From Capillimicrobium parvum (lineage in GTDB: Bacteria > Actinomycetota > Thermoleophilia > Solirubrobacterales > Solirubrobacteraceae): a stretch of DNA of 64,000 nucleotides. How positions within the stretch are numbered: the stretch's first letter is position 1; every line of letters begins with the position of its first letter. A program made the translations under genes and the position numbers. Positions 31,225 to 41,312 of the stretch are shown here, piece after piece. The stretch is taken from the NCBI RefSeq assembly GCF_021172045.1, contig NZ_CP087164.1, forward strand, positions 3,472,001-3,536,000, read 5' to 3'. The notes under the pieces were generated by a model, which did not search any database, had not been told where the DNA came from, and worked only from the letters and a program-made list of their open reading frames with translations.

Positions 31225-32082
31225 GTGATGACTGGCGCGGACTGGTCGGATATCGCCCGGTTCGGGGAGACGGTCTGCGAGACGCTGCGCTCGGTCGCGG
31301 TCCAGCGGCGTGCGCTTCCGGCATTCACGCGCCTCACGTCCAGCGACTCAGGCGGCATCTACGTGTTCGATCACCGCTACCGCGCGACGATGGCCTCGAT
31401 CGTCGGCGCTCCCAGCGTGCTGCTCTACGAGTTCGAGGAGCTCGGCCGGCGCGACTGCACCTACATGCAGCGCTCGATGGCGTCACGGTTTCCCGTACAC
31501 GACGCCATGCTGCATCCGACGAGCCGCGCCCATCGCAACGCGCCGCAGGGCCGGCTGCTGCAGAAGTACGGGCTCGAGCATTGCATGCTCATCCCCCTCA
31601 TCCGCAACGGACGCACCGTCGGCGCGGTCAGCATCGCGCGCGAGACGGGGCGGCCCCCGTTCAGCATCGCCGAGCAGCGCGTGGCCGATCGCCTGGCACG
31701 GTTCGTGTCCATCGCGCTGATCAACGCCGCGCTCCACGAGGCGATCGCGGGAGTCGACGACGACGCGGTCGCGGTCTCCGGCGACGGCGACCGCGACGGC
31801 GACGGCGACTCGGTGGAGACCGTGCGGATGCGCGACGAGGCCGGCGTGGCGCGCTACGCCGCGCGCCGAAGGAAGGCGACGGCCCTGCGCGGGACGCTCA
31901 GTGCGCGCGAGATCGAGGTGTTCGAGCTCATGGCCACCGGCCTGACGAACGCCGAGATGGCGGGCGAGCTGAACATCGCGGTCAACACCGTCAAGCAGCA
32001 CGTCAAGCAGATCTTCCGCAAGCTCGGCGCCCGCTCGCGCCTCGAAGCGGTCCATCACGGGTACGGCCCGCCGGTGCACTGA
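31225..32082 (+). CDS. GAF-like sensor/LuxR family transcriptional regulator
   Basis: This 285-residue protein's residues about 40-180 look like a GAF domain (IYVFDHRYRATMASIVG, HCMLIPLIRNGRTVGAVSIA). An acidic Asp/Gly linker follows at about 180-200, then a C-terminal LuxR/NarL helix-turn-helix (LSAREIEVFELMATGLTNAE, VNTVKQHVKQIFRKLGARSR). The GTG at 31225 is 8 bases from AGGAGG; an ATG three bases on is the alternative. It probably binds a small ligand and controls the divergent acyl-CoA mutase operon. Confidence 0.85.
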   Translation: MMTGADWSDIARFGETVCETLRSVAVQRRALPAFTRLTSSDSGGIYVFDHRYRATMASIVGAPSVLLYEFEELGRRDCTYMQRSMASRFPVHDAMLHPTSRAHRNAPQGRLLQKYGLEHCMLIPLIRNGRTVGAVSIARETGRPPFSIAEQRVADRLARFVSIALINAALHEAIAGVDDDAVAVSGDGDRDGDGDSVETVRMRDEAGVARYAARRRKATALRGTLSAREIEVFELMATGLTNAEMAGELNIAVNTVKQHVKQIFRKLGARSRLEAVHHGYGPPVH

Positions 32083-32130: not shown

Positions 32131-33261
32131 CTAGCCCAACACCCGGGCAGGCTCGCGGAGACCCTCCCGTACGAGCATCGGCAGCACGGACTCGCCGAAG
32201 GTGGCCAGACCGCCCTCGTAGTCGAGCCAGGTCAGCAGCAGACCGTCGACGCCGGCGTCGCACAGGGACGCGAGGGTCGCCGTGATCTCCTCGGCGGGGC
32301 CCAGGATCGGATAGCCGCCGTAGCCGGCTGCGATCGCGAAGCGGACCTGGTCCAGCACGCCCTCCGGGAACGTGTGGGCGTTACCCACGTTGTTGGCCAG
32401 GAAGGCGTCGACACCCTCCCGATCGCCGCGCGTCACGACGTAGTCCTGGACGTAGGCGCGGGCCTGCTCCATGGTGTCGCGCTGCACGACGTAGCTCGAC
32501 ATCCAGACCTGGATCTCCTTGCCGTACCGCTCCCGCGCCAGGTCCCGGTACTGGTCGACCTGCCTCTTCAGCGCTTCCGGCCGCGGGTCCTGCGGGATGA
32601 TGAAGGCCACGTCGCAGTCCCTCGCCGCGAAGTCCTGGCCCCGCTCCGACCCGCCCGCGTTCAGGAGGATCGGCCGCCGGTACGGCGACCGGGGTTGCAC
32701 GATCGCGCCCTTGAGATCGTAGAAGCGGCCGGTGAAGTCGAAGCCGGCCGGATCGTGCCAGAGGCGATCGAACACCTCCACCCATTCGTGCGCCAGGGCG
32801 TAGCGGTCCTCGTGGCCGTACATCGGGTCGCCGAACATCTCCATCTCGGCGCGATACCAACCGCAGACGAGGTTGAGGCCGAACCGACCGCTCGAGATGA
32901 GGTCGATCGTGGCCGCGCTCTTGGCCGCGATCACGGGATGGACCACCGAGAGGTGCACCGTGCTCATCACGCTGATGCGCTCGGTCACAGCAGCAACCGC
33001 GGCCGCCCAGGCGAAGGTCTCGAACAGATCCCCTGAGTAATGGCCGTCGCTGGCAAAGGGCTTCCAGCGCGAGGCGGAGACCGCGGCCTCCATGCCCAGT
33101 CGATCCGCAAGCTGCGCGATCCGGACGTTGTTGTCCCACGTCGGCACGAAGCGGTCAGGATGATTCGTGAACGCCGCTCCACCGTTGAAGCCGAAGACAC
33201 CGAGCTTCAGCCGGTTGGTGGAGCTGTGGATCGGGTTCATCGTGCTCCGGGTGCTGCTCAT
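32131..33261 (-). CDS. LLM-class flavin-dependent monooxygenase, RutA/DszA-like
   Basis: This 376-residue bacterial-luciferase-like TIM-barrel enzyme has STVHLSVVHPVIAAKSAATI and GRFGLNLVCGWYRAEMEMFG, the flavin-binding strand typical of the RutA/DszA/NtaA branch, and ends GLLLTWLDYEGGLATFGESV like the pyrimidine oxygenase RutA. It probably uses FMNH2 supplied by a separate reductase to open a ring or oxidise a heteroatom. AAAGGA is 7 bases upstream of the ATG. It is the last gene of the transporter/amidohydrolase operon, 43 bases after the amidohydrolase. Confidence 0.86.
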   Translation of the reverse strand: MSSTRSTMNPIHSSTNRLKLGVFGFNGGAAFTNHPDRFVPTWDNNVRIAQLADRLGMEAAVSASRWKPFASDGHYSGDLFETFAWAAAVAAVTERISVMSTVHLSVVHPVIAAKSAATIDLISSGRFGLNLVCGWYRAEMEMFGDPMYGHEDRYALAHEWVEVFDRLWHDPAGFDFTGRFYDLKGAIVQPRSPYRRPILLNAGGSERGQDFAARDCDVAFIIPQDPRPEALKRQVDQYRDLARERYGKEIQVWMSSYVVQRDTMEQARAYVQDYVVTRGDREGVDAFLANNVGNAHTFPEGVLDQVRFAIAAGYGGYPILGPAEEITATLASLCDAGVDGLLLTWLDYEGGLATFGESVLPMLVREGLREPARVLG

Positions 33262-33304
33262 GTTCAGGGTCCTTTCGAGGCTCGGCGTGGTCACCGTGCA
33301 GGCG

Positions 33305-34705
33305 TCACTCGACGACGATCGGCCAGCGTGACGCCGGGCGGAGCCCGAGACGCTCGAGCGCCTGCGATCCCACCCGATCGATCTCAGCGGCGAGCCCTTG
33401 GACATCGACCGTGGTGAGACGTCCGCCCTCCATGACCACCCGACCGTCGATGACCACGAGCTGCGCGGCACTCCCGCCGGCCCCGTAGATCAGGTCCGGG
33501 ATGGGATTGCCGAAGCGATCCGGCGAGAAGGCGAGCTCCGTCGCGTCGAACAGCGTGAGGTCAGCCGCCGTGCCGGCCTCGATCGTCCCGATGCGATCGT
33601 CCCAGCCCAGGGCACGCGCCGCGTTCACGGTCCCCATCTCGAACGCCTGGTAGGCGCCCATGATCAGCGGATCGCGGCGGGCATCCTTGTGGGCGGTGGC
33701 GGCGAGATGCATCGTGCGCACGAGGTCGAGGAACCGGCTGATCGCGGCGGCGTCAGTGCCGACGGCGGCGTTGACGCCCGCGGCGATCAGATCCGGGACG
33801 ACGCCGCCGGCGACCCACCCGTTGCCGCCGAGCAGGCTCGCTCCGGGGCAGTGCGCGATCGAGGCGCCCGAGGCGGCCAGCCGCGCGATGTCGTCGCCGT
33901 CGAGCCAGTTGATGTGCGCCAGGAGCAAGCACACGCCGGGTTCCAGCAGTCCGAAGCGCTCGTAGCGGTCCAGATCGGCGTTACCCGTCGGGGCCTCCGG
34001 GTCCGGCGGCCGGAACCCGAGGAAGTGGCCGAGGATCCCTGCGCCACGGAGACGGGTGCGCTGGGCGATCTCTTCGACCAGGCGGTCGCTGACCGCCGCC
34101 GGCATGTCGAGGTCGTACCAGACCCGCAGCCGGCCGTCGCCGGCTCCGTCGAAGCGGTCGACGGCTTCGTCCGCCTCCCTCAGGGCCTGGTCCGTGCTGC
34201 GCACCTCGCCGCCGAACGGGCTGGGAAGGTCAGCGGTCTTCGGGGCGAGGACACCTCGGATGCCGATCTCGATCGCGGCGCGAGCTGTACCGGCCGTCTG
34301 TGGACCGCCCCCGTCGCCGAAGCAGGTCGTGCCGTGCCGGATCATCTCGGCGAATGTGCCGAGGGCCGCGACATAGGCTTCCTCCTCGGTGAGCAGATCC
34401 TCGTGCGGGATGACGCGCTCGCCGAGCCGCTGCATCTGCGGCAGGTCGTCGCAGAGGCCCTTGATCAGGTACCCCCCGGCCGGATGGTTGTGCACGTCGA
34501 TCAACCCCGGCGTGAGAAGCCCGTGCGGCGCGTCGATCACCCGCTCGGGCGCGAACCCGGCCAGGATCTCGTCGCGCCGCGCGACCGCGACGATGTCCGT
34601 GCCGGCGACGGCCACGGCCCCGTCGAGCAGGATCCGGCGCGAGGAGTCCATCGTGACGACGGCTCCCGCGGTGATGACCAGGTCGGCGGGCTGGCGGTCG
34701 GTCAT
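33305..34705 (-). CDS. Amidohydrolase of the cyclic-amidine/S-adenosylhomocysteine deaminase type
   Basis: This 466-residue metal-dependent hydrolase has GLIDVHNHPAGGYLIKGL (first metal ligands), HGTTCFGDGG, ILGHFLGF, LLAHINWLDGDD, ASIAHCPGASLLGGNG and VGTDAAAISRFLDL. These match the TrzN/AtzA/guanine-deaminase/MtaD branch rather than dihydropyrimidinases. Expected reactions are deamination or dechlorination of N-heterocycles. It lies between a CUT2-type importer and a RutA-like oxygenase, so an imported N-containing ring compound is the likely substrate. ATG at 34705. Confidence 0.87.
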   Translation of the reverse strand: MTDRQPADLVITAGAVVTMDSSRRILLDGAVAVAGTDIVAVARRDEILAGFAPERVIDAPHGLLTPGLIDVHNHPAGGYLIKGLCDDLPQMQRLGERVIPHEDLLTEEEAYVAALGTFAEMIRHGTTCFGDGGGPQTAGTARAAIEIGIRGVLAPKTADLPSPFGGEVRSTDQALREADEAVDRFDGAGDGRLRVWYDLDMPAAVSDRLVEEIAQRTRLRGAGILGHFLGFRPPDPEAPTGNADLDRYERFGLLEPGVCLLLAHINWLDGDDIARLAASGASIAHCPGASLLGGNGWVAGGVVPDLIAAGVNAAVGTDAAAISRFLDLVRTMHLAATAHKDARRDPLIMGAYQAFEMGTVNAARALGWDDRIGTIEAGTAADLTLFDATELAFSPDRFGNPIPDLIYGAGGSAAQLVVIDGRVVMEGGRLTTVDVQGLAAEIDRVGSQALERLGLRPASRWPIVVE

Positions 34706-34721
34706 GACGCGATTCGCTCCT

Positions 34722-36245
34722 TCATCCTCGAGCTGTGGTGGGTGACGATTGCGGGGCGCCGCCGAGCGTGGCGACGAGCAGGGCGTGCTCGGTGAGCGAC
34801 TCGCCCGTGAGGGCCTGGGAGACCCGGCCGTCGCGCAGGACGAGGACGCGATCGCACACCTCGGCGAGGTCCTCGAGCTCGGCGCTGCAGATGACGATGC
34901 CGGTGCCACCCTGGGCACGTTCGGCCAGCAGGCGGTAGATCGCGGACTTCGCCGCGACGTCGACGCCCTGGGTGGGCTCGTCGAGGACGAGGACGCGCGG
35001 ATCGGTGCGCAGCCAGCGGGCGAGCACCGCCTTCTGCTGATTGCCGCCGCTGAACAGGTCGATGGGGCGCTCCGGGTCGGGCGGGACGAGCTCGACCGCC
35101 TCGGCCCAGCCGCGGACGTTGCGGCGCTCGCGCCGGCGCGAGAGATGCGTGCCGGTCCACAGTGGCCGCAGCCGGGGCAGCGTGATGTTCGCGCGCGCCG
35201 AGTGGCCCGGCACGAGCGCGCGCGCCGACCGGTCCGCCGGGACCATGACCAGACCGCGGCGCACGCACACAGCCGGGGAGCGGAGGCCGATCGGCACGCC
35301 GTCGACGTCGACGTCGCCTGCGGCGCCGGGATGGCTGCCGAAGAGCACGTCGGCGACGTCCTCGCGCCCGGATCCCAGCAGCCCCGTGACGCCGAGGACC
35401 TCGCGTTCGTGCAGATCGAGGTCGAGGTCCCGCAGCCGCCCGCCGGACAGGGCGCGGGCCCGCATCACGACCGCCTCCCGCGGCCGCACGGGCGCCGGGT
35501 ACATCTGCTCGACGGGCCGCCCCGCGATCAGGGTGACGAGGTCGTCGTGCGTGAGCTCCGCCGCGGGGCGCACCGCCACCATCCGGCCGTCGCGCAGGAC
35601 GCCGACGCGGTCGCAGAGCGCGAGGATCTCCTCGAGGCGATGGGAGACGAACAGCACGCCGGCGCCCGCCCCGGCGATGCGGCGCACCGTGGCGAACAGG
35701 CGCTCGACCTCACGCTCGGGCAGGGCCGCGGTCGGCTCGTCGAGGACGAGCACGCCCTGCGAGGAGCCCCAGCCGATCGTCGCCCGGACGATCGCGATCG
35801 CCGCGCGCTCGGCCGCGCTGAGCTGCGACACCGGCCGCGTGACGTCGAGCTCGATCCCGAACTGCGCGAGCGCCTCGACGACCCGCCGGCGCTGCGCCCG
35901 CCATCGGATCCGCCCGAGCCGCCCGGCGTCGAAGCCGCTGCCCAGGCCGACGTTGTCGACGGCGTCGAGCGAGCCGACGAGGCCCAGGTCCTGGTGGATG
36001 AACCGCAGACGGTCGTCGCCGGCGCCGCCCTCGAGATCGAGCGGCCTGCCGTACAGCGTGGCGCGCGCCCCTGGATCGGCCCGGTGATAGCCGGCGAGCA
36101 CCTTGATGATCGTGCTCTTCCCGGAGCCGTTCTGGCCGACGAGGCCGAAGATCTCCCCGGCCGCGATGCGCAGCTCGACGTCGTCCACCGCCTTCTGCCC
36201 GGGGAACGTCTTGCTGAGCGACTCGACCTCGAGGCCCGTCGTCAC
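34722..36245 (-). CDS. CUT2-type ABC transporter ATP-binding protein (two ATPase domains)
   Basis: This 507-residue protein has the RbsA/XylG layout. Domain 1: Walker A GQNGSGKST and Walker B LVLDEPTA, with a degenerate signature LSAAERAA in place of LSGGQ. Domain 2: a degenerate Walker A (GLLGSGRED) but an intact signature FSGGNQQKAVLARWL and Walker B LVLDEPTQGVDV. Degenerate domain-2 Walker A is normal for this class; the altered domain-1 signature is less usual. The GTG start overlaps the permease stop (GTGA). Confidence 0.9.
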   Translation of the reverse strand: MTTGLEVESLSKTFPGQKAVDDVELRIAAGEIFGLVGQNGSGKSTIIKVLAGYHRADPGARATLYGRPLDLEGGAGDDRLRFIHQDLGLVGSLDAVDNVGLGSGFDAGRLGRIRWRAQRRRVVEALAQFGIELDVTRPVSQLSAAERAAIAIVRATIGWGSSQGVLVLDEPTAALPEREVERLFATVRRIAGAGAGVLFVSHRLEEILALCDRVGVLRDGRMVAVRPAAELTHDDLVTLIAGRPVEQMYPAPVRPREAVVMRARALSGGRLRDLDLDLHEREVLGVTGLLGSGREDVADVLFGSHPGAAGDVDVDGVPIGLRSPAVCVRRGLVMVPADRSARALVPGHSARANITLPRLRPLWTGTHLSRRRERRNVRGWAEAVELVPPDPERPIDLFSGGNQQKAVLARWLRTDPRVLVLDEPTQGVDVAAKSAIYRLLAERAQGGTGIVICSAELEDLAEVCDRVLVLRDGRVSQALTGESLTEHALLVATLGGAPQSSPTTARG

Positions 36246-37327
36246 GTCACCGGCCCACTTCGGCTCGCAGCGGGCGAGGACGGCGTCCGCCCCGACGACG
36301 GCCCGGGGGCAGCCCCCGGACCGGACCGGTCGAGCTCGCGCTCGGACTCCCGGGTGCGGATGGACCGCTGCACGTTCGCCAGGCCGACGGCCACCAGCAG
36401 CGCGACGCCGTTGAACAGGTCCGGGAGCCAGTATGGAGCGCCCGCCAGCTCGAGGCCCTTGACGCCCACCGCGAGCACGTAGACGGCCAGCACCGTCCCC
36501 CAGACGTTGAACTGGCCGTTGCGGAACTGGGTGGCGCCGAGGAACGCGCCGGCGAAGACCGGAAGCAGGTACCCCACACCCGTCGTCGAGGTCGCCGAGC
36601 CGGCCCGGGCCGTGGCCAGCATGCCGGCCAGGGTCGCGACGATCGCGGCCGCCACGAACGCGCCGGCGACGATCCGGCCGGTGTGGACGCCGGTCAGGCG
36701 CGCGGCCTCCGCGTTGCCGCCCGTCGCGTACACGCGGCGTCCGACGGGCGTGTGCTCGAGCATGTACCAGACGACCAGGGCGACGATCGCCAGGTAGAAC
36801 ACCGGCAGGCCGATCCCCAGGATCTCGGTGCTGCCGAGGTCCTGGAAGAACGGGGTCAGCCCGATCAGCTGATCGCCGTTGGTCAGGGCGTTGCCCAGCG
36901 CCGTGAGCATCGAGAACATCGCGAGCGTCGCGATCAGCGAGTTGATGCGGAACCTGACGACGGAGATCGCGTTGATCGCCCCGATGCCCGCACCCACGCC
37001 CACGGTGGCCGCGATCGCCGGGACCGTGCCCCATCCGTGGGTGCCCATCAGCCACGCGACGAAGAGCGCGCCGGTGCCGAGCACCATCGCGATCGACAGG
37101 TCGATGGCCCCGGCGGCCAGCGGGATGACGAGCGCCACAGCGGCCATCGCGACGACCGACTGCTCGACGAGCAGGCTGCGCAGGGTCGTCGACGTGAGGA
37201 ACGTGTCCCCCACCCACAGCGAGTACACGACGAACAGCGCCACGAGCAGGTAGACGGCGCTGATGTTGCGAAACGACAGTGCTCGCGTCCAGCGGCCGCG
37301 AGCGCCGTCGACGGGCCGCGCGCTCAC
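36242..37327 (-). CDS. CUT2-type ABC transporter permease
   Basis: This 361-residue permease has about ten hydrophobic helices. It has VIPLAAGAIDLSIAMVLGTGA, the family's conserved GxxDLSV-like loop, and GRRVYATGGNAEAARLTGV, the RbsC cytosolic coupling segment that docks onto the ATPase. A Pro/Ser-rich C-terminal tail of about 40 residues is unusual. The start is GTG at 37327, 43 bases after the binding-protein stop. Only one permease gene is present, so it should work as a homodimer. Confidence 0.9.
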   Translation of the reverse strand: MSARPVDGARGRWTRALSFRNISAVYLLVALFVVYSLWVGDTFLTSTTLRSLLVEQSVVAMAAVALVIPLAAGAIDLSIAMVLGTGALFVAWLMGTHGWGTVPAIAATVGVGAGIGAINAISVVRFRINSLIATLAMFSMLTALGNALTNGDQLIGLTPFFQDLGSTEILGIGLPVFYLAIVALVVWYMLEHTPVGRRVYATGGNAEAARLTGVHTGRIVAGAFVAAAIVATLAGMLATARAGSATSTTGVGYLLPVFAGAFLGATQFRNGQFNVWGTVLAVYVLAVGVKGLELAGAPYWLPDLFNGVALLVAVGLANVQRSIRTRESERELDRSGPGAAPGPSSGRTPSSPAASRSGPVT

Positions 37328-37370
37328 GGTTCCAGCTCGTGCGGTCGGGCTCGACGGGGACTTCCGGCCG

Positions 37371-38537
37371 TCACTCGCCGCCCCAGAGGGCGGTGAACTT
37401 GGCCGGGAAGTCCGGGACCGACGGCCACGGCTCGCTCGGCGGGAAGTCCAGGTTCTCCTGTGTCAGGAACTGGATCGGGATGTCCCCCACCGTGTTCTCC
37501 GGGTCCTGGCCGGCGAGCATCCTCGCCGCGACGTCGAGGGCCTTGAACCCGAAGAACTCCATGTTGAAGCCGACGTCGGCGGTCTGCTGACCCGCCTTGA
37601 TGTATTCGTAGTTGGCCTGCTGGCCGGCGATGGTGATCGCCTTGACGCCGTCGATCCCGGCGGACTGCAGCGCCTGCGGGACCCCGATGTACATGTCGCC
37701 GAACGTGCCGGTGATCCAGTTGATGCTCGGGTCCTTCTGCACCGCGCTGACGACCTTGCTCGCAAGGGACGGCCGGCCCAGGTCGGAGATGGCGATGTCG
37801 AGGACGGTCAGCTTGCAATCCGGGCAGGCCTTCGCGTAGCCCTCCTTGAAGCCATCCAGGCCCGCCGGCACGCCGCCGCCGGCGAGGTTGAGATAGAGCG
37901 TGCTGGCGCCCTTGCCGCCGGCGTCGGCGGCGATGAACTGCGCCATCTGGCCCTGCGTGAGGGCGGTCGCCTCGTTGCCGTAGATGGAGACCGTCCCTGG
38001 GGCGTCGGGCACCGACCATGTGACGACCGGGATCTTCGCGTCGCCGGCCTGCTTGAGCTCCGCCTGGTAGAGCTGCGTCGGGGTCCCGGGTGCCACGATG
38101 ATCGACGGCTTCAGGGCGAGGCCGGCCTTCCAGGCCTTGCTGACCGTCTCCGGGGTGAAGCCCTGCGGTGGCGACTCCGCGAACTTCATCCCCATCGCCT
38201 TCGCTGCGGCCTCGGTCCCCTGGCTCTGGCGCTCGCAGATCGGCTGCGAGCAGCGCATGAACACCACGGTGCCCGTCGGCGCCTGCTTCAGCGGCTCGCT
38301 CACGCCGATGTCCTGCGGCACCTGGCTGTACTTCGCCACGGTCGCCTTCGCCGCAGCGAGCGCCGGGTCGGCCGCGGTCGTGTCCGCGGCTGCGGTCGCG
38401 GCGGCAGTGGAGACCGCGGTGGTCGCGCCGTCCTCCCCGCTGGACCCGCAACCGCTCGCGACCAGCGCGGCGGCGACGAGTCCCAGCATCAGCGTGCGGG
38501 CCCGCGCTCCGGGCGTCCGTGGCAGACCGAGCTGCAT
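37371..38537 (-). CDS. ABC transporter substrate-binding lipoprotein
   Basis: This 388-residue protein has an N-terminal signal ending in lipobox LVASGC (Cys at about 30), then a low-complexity Ala/Thr linker and a periplasmic-binding-protein type 1 fold (QGTEAAAKAMGMKF, VVTWSVPDAP, FGFKALDVAARMLAG). Two extra Cys pairs (RCSQPIC and ACPDC) are uncommon and may form disulphides near the binding cleft. It is anchored outside the membrane and delivers solute to the permease. The ATG at 38537 is preceded by GAGGGG. First gene of the operon. The ligand is unknown; the downstream enzymes suggest an N-heterocycle rather than a sugar. Confidence 0.88.
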   Translation of the reverse strand: MQLGLPRTPGARARTLMLGLVAAALVASGCGSSGEDGATTAVSTAAATAAADTTAADPALAAAKATVAKYSQVPQDIGVSEPLKQAPTGTVVFMRCSQPICERQSQGTEAAAKAMGMKFAESPPQGFTPETVSKAWKAGLALKPSIIVAPGTPTQLYQAELKQAGDAKIPVVTWSVPDAPGTVSIYGNEATALTQGQMAQFIAADAGGKGASTLYLNLAGGGVPAGLDGFKEGYAKACPDCKLTVLDIAISDLGRPSLASKVVSAVQKDPSINWITGTFGDMYIGVPQALQSAGIDGVKAITIAGQQANYEYIKAGQQTADVGFNMEFFGFKALDVAARMLAGQDPENTVGDIPIQFLTQENLDFPPSEPWPSVPDFPAKFTALWGGE

Positions 38538-38833: not shown

Positions 38834-40243
38834 ATGAGCATCTCGGCTTCCACCCAGGACCGCCGGCAGCTCCTCGCGGAGCGATTCGACGGCATCCTCA
38901 CCGGGCCCGGCGACGCCGCCTACGACGAGACCCGGCGCTGCTACAACGGCCTGGTCGACAAGCGTCCGGCGATCATCGCCACGTGCCGCGGCACCGCCGA
39001 CGTCGTCGAGGCCGTGCGGTTCGCCACCGGGCAGGGACTGGACGTCGCGGTGCGCGGCGGGGGCCACAACGCGGCGGGCCGCGCGATGTGCGACGACGGC
39101 CTCGTGGTGGACCTGTCGCTGATGCGCGGCGTCGACGTCGACCCGGAGACGCGCACCGCCCGCGTCCAGGGCGGCGCGCTGTGGCGCGACGTCAATCGCG
39201 AGACCGGCGTCCACGGGCTGGCGGTCACCGGCGGAGCGATCTCCACGACGGGCGTCGGCGGCTACACGCTCGGCGGCGGCCTCGGTTGGCTGATGGGCCT
39301 GCACGGCCTGGCGGCCGACAACCTCGTCGAGGCCGAGGTCGTGCTGGCCACGGGCGAGGTCGTGCGCGCCCGGGCCGATCACCACGAGGACCTGTTCTGG
39401 GCGATCCGTGGAGGCGGCGGCAACTTCGGCGTCGTCACGTCGTTCGCCCTGCGCCTGCATCACCACCCGGAGGTGGTCGGCGGCGTCATCGCCCACCCGC
39501 TCGACGCGGCCGCGGACATGCTGCGCTTCTACCGAGAGGTCACGGCCGACGTCCCGGACGCGCTCACCGTCTTCGCCGCGGTGCTGCACGCGCCCGACGG
39601 GTCGGGCGTGCCGCTCGGCGCGCTGCTCGTCTGCCATGCCGGCGAGCGGGCCCAGGCCGAGCGCGACGTGCAGCGGTTGGCGGAGTGGGGCTCGCCCGTC
39701 ATGGCCGAGGTGGGCCCGATGCCGTATCCGGCGGTGAACACGATGCTCGACGCGGGGTTCCCGCCCGGGTCGCTGAACTACTGGAAGTCGACGTTCGTGC
39801 GCGACCTCGACGACGGTCTGTTCGAGTTGATGGTCCACCGCATCGCCGACTGCCCGTCGCCGATGACCGGGATCCTCCTCGAGCACTTCCACGGCGAGGT
39901 GACGCGCGTCGATCCGGCCGCGACCGCCGTCCCGCACCGCCGGCCCGGCTACAACCTGCTGATCCCGTCGCTGTGGACGGACCCGGCCACGACGGACGCG
40001 AACGTCCGCTGGGTTCGCGAGACCTTCGCGGCGACGGCGCCGTACCGCGCCGGCGCCCGCTGGCTCAACTACTTCGACGACGACGAGGAGCCCGGGTCGC
40101 TCGACCACGCCTACGGGCCGAACCTGGTCCGGCTCGCACAGGTCAAGCGCCGCTACGACCCGGCCAACGTCCTCCATCACAACCAGAACATCCTCCCCGC
40201 CCGCGACGAGGCGGGTGCCCCGGCGAGCACGGCCGGCCGGTGA
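38834..40243 (+). CDS. FAD-linked oxidase, berberine-bridge-enzyme type
   Basis: This 469-residue oxidase has an N-terminal PCMH-type FAD-binding domain with VRGGGHNAAGRAM, whose His is the usual 8-alpha covalent FAD site, and STTGVGGYTLGGGLGWL. The Cys used for the second FAD bond in bicovalent members is absent (Thr in that position). The C-terminal BBE motif is YDPANVLHHNQNI. It has no secretion signal, so it is probably a cytosolic oxidase of an alcohol, sugar or secondary metabolite. AAGGAG lies 7 bases before the ATG at 38834; an upstream ATG at 38801 is less well served. Confidence 0.88.
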   Translation: MSISASTQDRRQLLAERFDGILTGPGDAAYDETRRCYNGLVDKRPAIIATCRGTADVVEAVRFATGQGLDVAVRGGGHNAAGRAMCDDGLVVDLSLMRGVDVDPETRTARVQGGALWRDVNRETGVHGLAVTGGAISTTGVGGYTLGGGLGWLMGLHGLAADNLVEAEVVLATGEVVRARADHHEDLFWAIRGGGGNFGVVTSFALRLHHHPEVVGGVIAHPLDAAADMLRFYREVTADVPDALTVFAAVLHAPDGSGVPLGALLVCHAGERAQAERDVQRLAEWGSPVMAEVGPMPYPAVNTMLDAGFPPGSLNYWKSTFVRDLDDGLFELMVHRIADCPSPMTGILLEHFHGEVTRVDPAATAVPHRRPGYNLLIPSLWTDPATTDANVRWVRETFAATAPYRAGARWLNYFDDDEEPGSLDHAYGPNLVRLAQVKRRYDPANVLHHNQNILPARDEAGAPASTAGR

Positions 40244-40244
40244 C

Positions 40245-41312
40245 GTGCGCGCGGAGATCCGCTTCTGCACGGCGCCGGACGGAACGTCCCTGGCCTACGC
40301 GCAGCACGGGCGCGGCCCGCCGCTCGTGCGCGTGGCGACCTGGCTGACCCACCTCGAGCTCGATGCCCGCAGCCCCGTCTGGGGCCACTGGCTCGACCGC
40401 CTGGGCGAGCGCCACACCCTGTTGCGCTACGACGAGCGCGGCTGCGGCCTGTCGGGGGGCCCGGTGGGCGCGCTGTCGGTGGACGCATGGGTCGGCGACC
40501 TCGAGGCCGTGGTCGACGCGGCCGGCGTCGACCACTTCGCGCTGCTCGGCGTATCCCAGGGCGCGGCGGTCGCCGTCGCGTTCGCGGCGCGTCATCCCGA
40601 GCGCGTCAGCGAGCTGGTGCTCTACGGCGGCTACGCGCGCGGCCGGCGGGTGCGCGGAGAGGACCGGCGGGAGGAGGCGATGCTGGCCTCGATCCGCGCC
40701 GGCTGGACCGACGCCGACGCGACGTTCCGTCACCTGTTCAGCCTCCTGTTCCTCCCGAACGGGACGCCCGACCAGATGGCCTGGTTCGACGAGCTCCTGC
40801 GCACCACGACCACGCAGGAGACTGCGCTGAAGCTGTTCGCGGCCCGCGGCGCGATCGACGTGCGCGGCGAGGCGCCGGGCGTGTCGGCGCCGACCCTGGT
40901 GATGCACGCCCGGGACGACCGGGTCGTCGGCGTCGAGGAGGGGCGCATGCTCGCGCGGCTGATCCCGCGGGCGAGACTGCTCGTGCTCGACTCCGCCAAC
41001 CACATCCTGCTGGCCGACGAGCCCGCGTGGGAGGAGTTCGTGTCCGCGCTGCACGCCTTCCTCGCGGTCGCGCCGCCGGCCGCTGCCGAGCCCGCCACGT
41101 CCGAGCTGAGCCCGCGCGAGCTCGAGGTCCTCGAGCTCGTGGCGGACGGCCTCACGAACGAGGCGATCGCGCAGCACCTGTTCCTCAGCGTCCGGACGGT
41201 CGAGCGCCATCTCTCGAACGTCTACGCCAAGCTGCGGCTGTCGGGCAAGGCCGCGCGGGCGGCGGCCGCGGCCGCGTTCGCCGGACGGCGCGAGGCGGCG
41301 CGAGGCCCGTAG
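40245..41312 (+). CDS. Alpha/beta hydrolase fused to a LuxR-type DNA-binding domain
   Basis: This 355-residue protein's residues about 5-275 form an alpha/beta hydrolase: LLRYDERGCGLSGG, nucleophile elbow GVSQGAAVAVAFA, MHARDDRVVG with the acid and DSANHILLADE with the His. The C-terminal 65 residues are a LuxR helix-turn-helix (LSPRELEVLELVADGLTNEA, SVRTVERHLSNVYAKL). The triad looks intact, so it may sense or process its ligand enzymatically, or the fold may only bind it. GTG at 40245 follows the oxidase stop after one base, so the two are co-transcribed. Confidence 0.87.
   Translation: MRAEIRFCTAPDGTSLAYAQHGRGPPLVRVATWLTHLELDARSPVWGHWLDRLGERHTLLRYDERGCGLSGGPVGALSVDAWVGDLEAVVDAAGVDHFALLGVSQGAAVAVAFAARHPERVSELVLYGGYARGRRVRGEDRREEAMLASIRAGWTDADATFRHLFSLLFLPNGTPDQMAWFDELLRTTTTQETALKLFAARGAIDVRGEAPGVSAPTLVMHARDDRVVGVEEGRMLARLIPRARLLVLDSANHILLADEPAWEEFVSALHAFLAVAPPAAAEPATSELSPRELEVLELVADGLTNEAIAQHLFLSVRTVERHLSNVYAKLRLSGKAARAAAAAAFAGRREAARGP

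Follow-up and report, generated by a model that had tools for sequence, protein, structure and literature searches.

Gene content and layout of the locus

A stretch of 64,000 nucleotides of the Capillimicrobium parvum genome (contig NZ_CP087164.1, positions 3,472,001 to 3,536,000), hereafter referred to as the window and numbered from its first letter, carries on its minus strand, between 32131 and 38537, five genes that combine an ATP-binding cassette (ABC) importer of the CUT2 class with an amidohydrolase and a flavin-dependent monooxygenase. These genes encode a substrate-binding lipoprotein of the CUT2 type that carries two Cys pairs (37371..38537; PF13407, Peripla_BP_4, 6.1e-19), a CUT2-type permease (36242..37327; PF02653, BPD_transp_2, 5.1e-29), a CUT2-type double ATPase (34722..36245; PF00005, ABC_tran, in two stretches), a COG0402-type amidohydrolase without the HxxE glutamate (33305..34705; PF01979, Amidohydro_1, 8.6e-39), and a luciferase-like (group C) flavin mononucleotide (FMN) monooxygenase with a RutA-type oxygen motif except at its first position, hereafter LLM (32131..33261; PF00296, Bac_luciferase, 1.1e-52). 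The Pfam matches to all five families bear out the gene classes given in a preliminary description of this locus, and the presence of Peripla_BP_4, BPD_transp_2 and a double ATPase in one row identifies the transporter as a CUT2 ABC importer.

The intergenic spacing along the row is, in order, 43 nt, an overlap (between the GTG start of the ATPase gene and the stop of the permease gene), 17 nt, and 43 nt; Shine-Dalgarno-like sequences precede both enzyme genes, with the LLM gene starting at an ATG with AAAGGA upstream. The short gaps and the overlap, along with the Shine-Dalgarno-like sequences just mentioned, make it likely that the five genes constitute a single operon. The genome (5.95 Mb, one contig) yields 33 Peripla_BP_4, 49 Bac_luciferase, and 10 Amidohydro_1 matches; each part of the operon is thus common by itself, and the point of interest is the combination.

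The importer and its relatives

The binding-protein gene starts at an ATG at position 38537 and encodes a lipobox, LVASGC, with C52 as the lipobox Cys, as well as the two unusual Cys pairs that had been noted earlier, C118/C123 and C260/C263 (numbering of the longer open reading frame of 410 aa). At the ten ribose-contact positions of RbsB considered here, the binding protein shares no identical residue with RbsB (0/10), while AlsB, YtfQ, and LsrB keep 7, 6, and 3, respectively; these counts hang on a single alignment, made with MAFFT, of distantly related proteins. Eight of the genome's other 32 binding proteins keep 1 to 4 of the ten residues. Since none of the ribose-contact positions is kept, a simple sugar is, as judged from this alignment, an unlikely ligand, which agrees with the preliminary proposal of a ligand other than sugar. 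The operon could also be read as a sugar importer of the usual kind, with the two enzymes as bystanders, since most of the PDB matches listed for the binding protein, 10 from the sequence search and 50 from the fold search, bear the names of sugar binders; in view of the 0/10 result we consider this highly improbable. In an AlphaFold model, albeit a weak one (pLDDT 69), the binding protein has the RbsB fold.

CUT2 genes also accompany LLM genes elsewhere. Among 20 stretches (≤20 kb) from the order of C. parvum that hold a relative of the LLM, three of them from its own genome and those of contig G083:C92 overlapping one another, 7 contain the LLM together with two or more CUT2 parts, as counted by tblastn; in one of these (L045) the CUT2 parts lie several kb from the LLM. 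Within the C. parvum genome, 7 of the 33 binding proteins are encoded within 6 kb of an LLM gene compared to 2.8 expected, with 653 of 20000 circular shifts giving a count as high, so that the genome-wide proximity of CUT2 binding proteins to LLM genes is weak. Seven LLM-linked binding proteins of relatives were compared with that of the window; each keeps none of the ten RbsB positions, and six of the seven reach Peripla_BP_4 by Pfam, the exception being that of L035. L035 has the C118/C123 pair as well, and L039 and L041 have it with the two Cys farther apart; the CPxC pair C260/C263 is present at unchanged spacing in L039, L041, L042, and L044 (L039/L041 and L042/L044 are close pairs), and the binding proteins of L033 and L036 show different Cys patterns. 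L041 (5017-10537) and L039 (9408-14975) share a row in which genes for a CUT2 binding protein, an ATPase, and a permease are joined by those for a SnoaL-like protein and an LLM, which is another CUT2/LLM operon type, present in two genomes. L042 (3986-13720) and L044 (6699-16380) show CUT2 genes, a short-chain dehydrogenase/reductase gene, an isopropylmalate-dehydrogenase-like gene, and an LLM gene, after which comes a second set of CUT2 ATPase and permease genes.

The best NCBIfam model for the permease is AraH, followed by RbsC, with all scores below cut-off. In the ATPase, the first Walker A motif is good and the second degenerate, while the first signature is degenerate (LSAAE) and the second normal (SGGNQQK). 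The altered signature had been put forward as unusual; it is indeed non-canonical, yet E. coli RbsA, AlsA, YtfR, and LsrA share the motif pattern of the window protein with equal degeneracy, which rules it out as a sign of novelty. Overall, the importer resembles the CUT2 systems RbsABC, AlsABC, YtfQRT, and LsrABCD in gene set, families, and ATPase motif pattern, but differs from them in the absence of the RbsB ribose-contact residues, in its two Cys pairs, in having one permease gene, and in being followed by catabolic enzymes.

The two enzymes and their pairing in Burkholderia

The LLM shares the group C FMN monooxygenase family with RutA of the E. coli Rut pathway but is only 27-29% identical to it. 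Its best curated model is SfnG (TIGR04021; 185.2 bits, cut-off 382.95) and its second RutA (TIGR03612; 149.2 bits, cut-off 498.3); because both scores are far below cut-off, the LLM is, by the measure of these models, an ortholog of neither. The oxygen-reactivity motif found in RutA and in part of the group C enzymes has been given as F/L - T/S - NxV - A - F/L/Y (PMC8234197), and the RutA residues of this motif and their role have been described (PMC7662398). The corresponding residues of the LLM read V-T-NLV-A-F and would thus match the published pattern except at the first position, where RutA differs and the LLM has Val (65) instead of Phe/Leu, a conservative change; T105, N134, V136, A206, and F224 are retained, as in RutA. 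Across 35 sequences (the LLM and 34 relatives), T105, N134, and A206 are identical in all 35, position 136 is V in 30 and I in 5, position 224 is F in 31, Y in 3, and L in 1, and position 65 is V in 15, L in 12, and I in 8; E. coli SsuD carries Ala, Asn, Gly, and Leu at positions 105, 134, 206, and 224, respectively. In the LLM tree, the window protein pairs with that of Burkholderia sp. L27(2015) (support 1.00) and then with that of Sphingobium (0.997), while RutA lies outside these relatives on a long branch. The earlier label "RutA-like" thus holds for the oxygen-binding residues and fails for family membership, where SfnG outscores RutA and both are under cut-off; the proposed assignment to a ring-opening type of flavin oxygenase is supported by the oxygen motif to the extent that this is kept. 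LLMs that open pyridine-type rings exist, and by analogy pyridine-type ring compounds may also be substrates of the window's LLM.

The dimethylsulfone monooxygenase SfnG, as the best PDB match (8t0u) as well as the best curated model of the LLM, suggests a different function, in which the LLM would be an SfnG-like monooxygenase that cleaves C-S bonds and the operon would serve sulfur acquisition. The score, however, falls far short of the 383 bits required for SfnG, the PDB alignment places an Ala of SfnG at the position of T105, and PMC8234197 describes the oxygen motif as not fully conserved in SfnG; moreover, sulfur acquisition would leave the amidohydrolase without a role, and we rate this explanation as very doubtful.

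For the amidohydrolase (residue numbering of the translated stretch P0002), the metal and catalytic residues of COG0402 deaminases (HxH, His, His, Asp) are all present as H77, H79, H232, H269, and D323, whereas the HxxE glutamate position is Gly235 and the PHAP histidine position is Asp205. Two studies (PMC12828455, PMC13054789) describe Asp, His, and the HxxE Glu as the catalytic set of guanine and cytosine deaminases, with Glu conservation of 98.0% and 99.9% in two clusters. In the window protein this set is incomplete, with Asp and His kept and Glu replaced by Gly, and the hydrolytic deamination step of the preliminary description is unsupported because the Glu used by deaminases is missing. 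An AlphaFold model (pLDDT 83) matches adenosine deaminases first (4gbd, Foldseek E 7.7e-38), then AtzA, isocytosine deaminase, and TrzN. The likeness to COG0402 deaminases and triazine hydrolases, including guanine deaminase, thus covers fold, the five metal-site residues, and the catalytic Asp and His. Such a match speaks to fold only; with the Glu missing, a deaminase by homology is set aside as the default reading. The protein scores under cut-off with every one of the 25 NCBIfam models listed. When 20 relatives were placed in a tree, seven of them joined the window amidohydrolase in a clade (support 0.96), and the Glu is absent in all seven, with G, S, V, V, T, T, and P at its position. 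The Burkholderia amidohydrolase has the same states as the window protein, i.e., Gly at the Glu position and Asp205, and within this clade Asp205 is common only to Burkholderia.

In Burkholderia sp. L27, which occurs in one paper among the literature matches listed (PMC8506256), the row runs from the amidohydrolase (57% identical) through an AraC regulator and the LLM (76%) to a flavin reductase with 37% identity to RutF, a nitroreductase with 24% identity to RutE (E 3e-4), and a Phenol_MetA_deg protein of the outer membrane; the flavin reductase and nitroreductase are a further likeness to the Rut pathway. Recurrence of the pair side by side in this very distant bacterium supports the amidohydrolase and the LLM as one module, in agreement with the earlier suggestion that they act together. 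The 16S rRNA genes of the two genomes are 79% identical, for which distance 76% identity of the LLMs is high; together with the third-position G+C, which is lower in the enzyme genes, at 0.905 and 0.895, than in the transporter genes (0.94-0.95) and the surrounding genes (0.92-0.96), this suggests transfer.

No close copies of the operon were found in the order and phylum of C. parvum at the thresholds used, in drawn samples of genomes where rarer copies can be missed. Query P0003 matched 8 of 201 genomes of the order at E<=1e-60, its own included, with a best other identity of 47%; in 396 genomes of the phylum, P0003 at E<=1e-90 and P0002 at E<=1e-75 each matched only their own. Among 398 genomes drawn from the family of the Burkholderia genome, 7 matched at E<=1e-95, one being that genome and the remaining six showing 41-45% identity; of 398 drawn from its phylum, 2 matched, that genome and one more at 46%. 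Viral contigs gave no pattern match to P0003; 15 phage records matched the Burkholderia LLM, with 24-28% identity among the five matches listed. No paper on the operon was among the literature matches listed, in a search whose coverage leaves out most subscription journals.

Candidate substrates and biological meaning

With the gene content, operon layout, motif states, and enzyme pairing in a very distant bacterium observed directly, the best-supported explanation, which we advance tentatively and at slightly less than even confidence, is import of a nitrogen-ring compound followed by its oxygenolytic and hydrolytic breakdown. The lipoprotein and the CUT2-type importer would take up a small nitrogen-containing ring compound, at best guess a cyclic imide, ureide, hydantoin, or lactam-like ring. 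A reductase encoded elsewhere would supply FMNH2 to the LLM, which may form a flavin-N5-peroxide and, as RutA, open the ring by oxygenolysis at a carbon adjoining nitrogen. The amidohydrolase, as a putative mononuclear metal hydrolase, would carry out one hydrolytic step before or after the LLM; with the proton-shuttling Glu missing, hydrolysis of an activated C-N or C-O bond is likelier than classical nucleobase deamination, and Asp205 could perhaps serve as the acid. The overall reading of the preliminary description, import and breakdown of such a compound, is thus retained in its broad form and given up as regards deamination. A nucleobase or a triazine, the ligand types named there, may be the substrate as well.

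Evidence on the substrate comes from the neighbours of amidohydrolase relatives. We surveyed 46 loci, i.e., 44 of the 46 from a GTDB scan with P0002 (L100 and L102, partial matches, were left out) plus L056 and L057; the scan used exact short patterns, which favours close relatives, and the contigs measure 3.6 to 25 kb, of which short ones may hide neighbours. The Glu is absent in 12 loci, including the frame-broken L101, whose state is unreliable, and present in 34. A hydantoinase, an LLM, a cytosine/purine-type permease, or an M20 neighbour was found at 5 of the 7 Glu-less clade loci compared to 1 of the 34 Glu-bearing loci (Fisher 1.6e-4), and at 6 of all 12 Glu-less loci compared to the same 1 of 34 (Fisher 6.0e-4). 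Specifically, hydantoinase A and B occur with M20 at L056 and with an LLM at L060, hydantoinase A with an LLM at L062, M20 with a permease of the cytosine/purine/uracil/thiamine/allantoin family at L084, and an LLM with a flavin reductase at L058, while L057 and L059 have no such neighbour at threshold, L059 having two weaker LLMs; the single Glu-bearing locus is L082 (LLM, M20). In L035, too, there is a hydantoinase A gene, ~3 kb past the LLM of its CUT2/LLM set. The neighbours of the Glu-less amidohydrolases support a nitrogen-ring substrate and the nitrogen-heterocycle context proposed earlier, while other relatives point to aromatics. In L060 and L062, which are proteobacterial and deltaproteobacterial metagenome-assembled genomes, the LLM beside the Glu-less amidohydrolase is of a different type.

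A number of observations weigh against breakdown of a nitrogen-ring compound. The neighbour figures are overstated, since L060 and L062 are near-identical and several queries derive from the same loci. The LLMs of L060, L062, and L059 lack the RutA motif, so that the motif-bearing pair is seen shared only by Burkholderia, and 21 queries found no flavin reductase or hydantoinase in the window. After Burkholderia, the nearest relative of the LLM seen, that of Sphingobium AntQ-1 (52%), adjoins genes for a cupin, an FAA hydrolase, and a class II aldolase, which suggests an aromatic rather than a nitrogen-ring route, and a Rieske ring-hydroxylating dioxygenase gene lies near the CUT2/LLM set in L036. 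Together with the Phenol_MetA_deg protein near the Burkholderia pair, these two loci favour an operon that degrades a plant- or soil-derived aromatic or O-heterocycle without a nitrogen ring, where the LLM would hydroxylate or open the ring and the amidohydrolase would remove an amide or ester. The neighbours of the Glu-less amidohydrolases point instead to hydantoin- or nucleobase-type metabolism, and the oxygen motif fits RutA-like attack on a carbonyl carbon, although PMC11134501 describes a similar oxygen pocket in DszA, whose substrate is an aromatic sulfone. We consider an aromatic or O-heterocyclic substrate unlikely, but the most serious of the alternatives.

The transporter and the enzymes, furthermore, need not share a substrate, since tblastn detected no CUT2 part in the 21-kb Burkholderia stretch and the amidohydrolase in 0 of the 20 LLM-relative stretches of the C. 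parvum order. Recombination could thus have brought together genes that act on different substrates, and the third-position G+C of the enzyme genes (~0.90) departs from that of the transporter genes. By contrast, the gap between the ATPase and amidohydrolase genes is just 17 nt, and CUT2 parts do occur near LLM genes in relatives (7/20) and, weakly so, in the C. parvum genome; we judge such a chance neighbourhood improbable, if a shade less so than a role in sulfur acquisition.

Genes flanking the operon include, on the plus strand, a divergent EncM-like flavin adenine dinucleotide (FAD) oxidase gene (38834..40243; EncM, E 1.5e-90) and a convergent gene for a GAF and LuxR-type regulator (31225..32082; PF00196, PF13185), both treated here as neighbours of the operon. 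The oxidase retains the GGGH stretch, and the V135-V-S-H-T139 stretch of EncM reads A-I-S-T-T; as EncM is a flavin-N5-oxide enzyme, enzymes of the N5-oxide type and the N5-peroxide type may adjoin in the window. An alpha/beta hydrolase with a LuxR-type DNA-binding domain (40215-41312, plus strand) is weakly RutD-like (22%). The search of the window for Rut partners with the 21 queries returned only RutA and this weak RutD match (22%, 40386-41024), with no RutB, C, E, F, or G, and the importer, being an ABC system and not RutG, differs from the Rut pathway as well.

A bolder proposal, which we hold to be distinctly less probable than breakdown of a nitrogen-ring compound in general, is that a CUT2-class importer of non-sugar nitrogen-ring compounds feeds a flavin-N5-peroxide ring-opener and a Glu-less metal hydrolase in which the acid would have moved to another loop (Asp205), a chemistry that COG0402 is not known to perform. 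The locus provides a testable two-enzyme module common to two very distant bacteria, points to a RutA-sister monooxygenase clade in which the members sampled retain the core of the N5-peroxide motif, and outlines a Glu-less branch of deaminase-like amidohydrolases. Some of the CUT2 "sugar" importers may transport nitrogen compounds, in which case automatic annotations would need correction.

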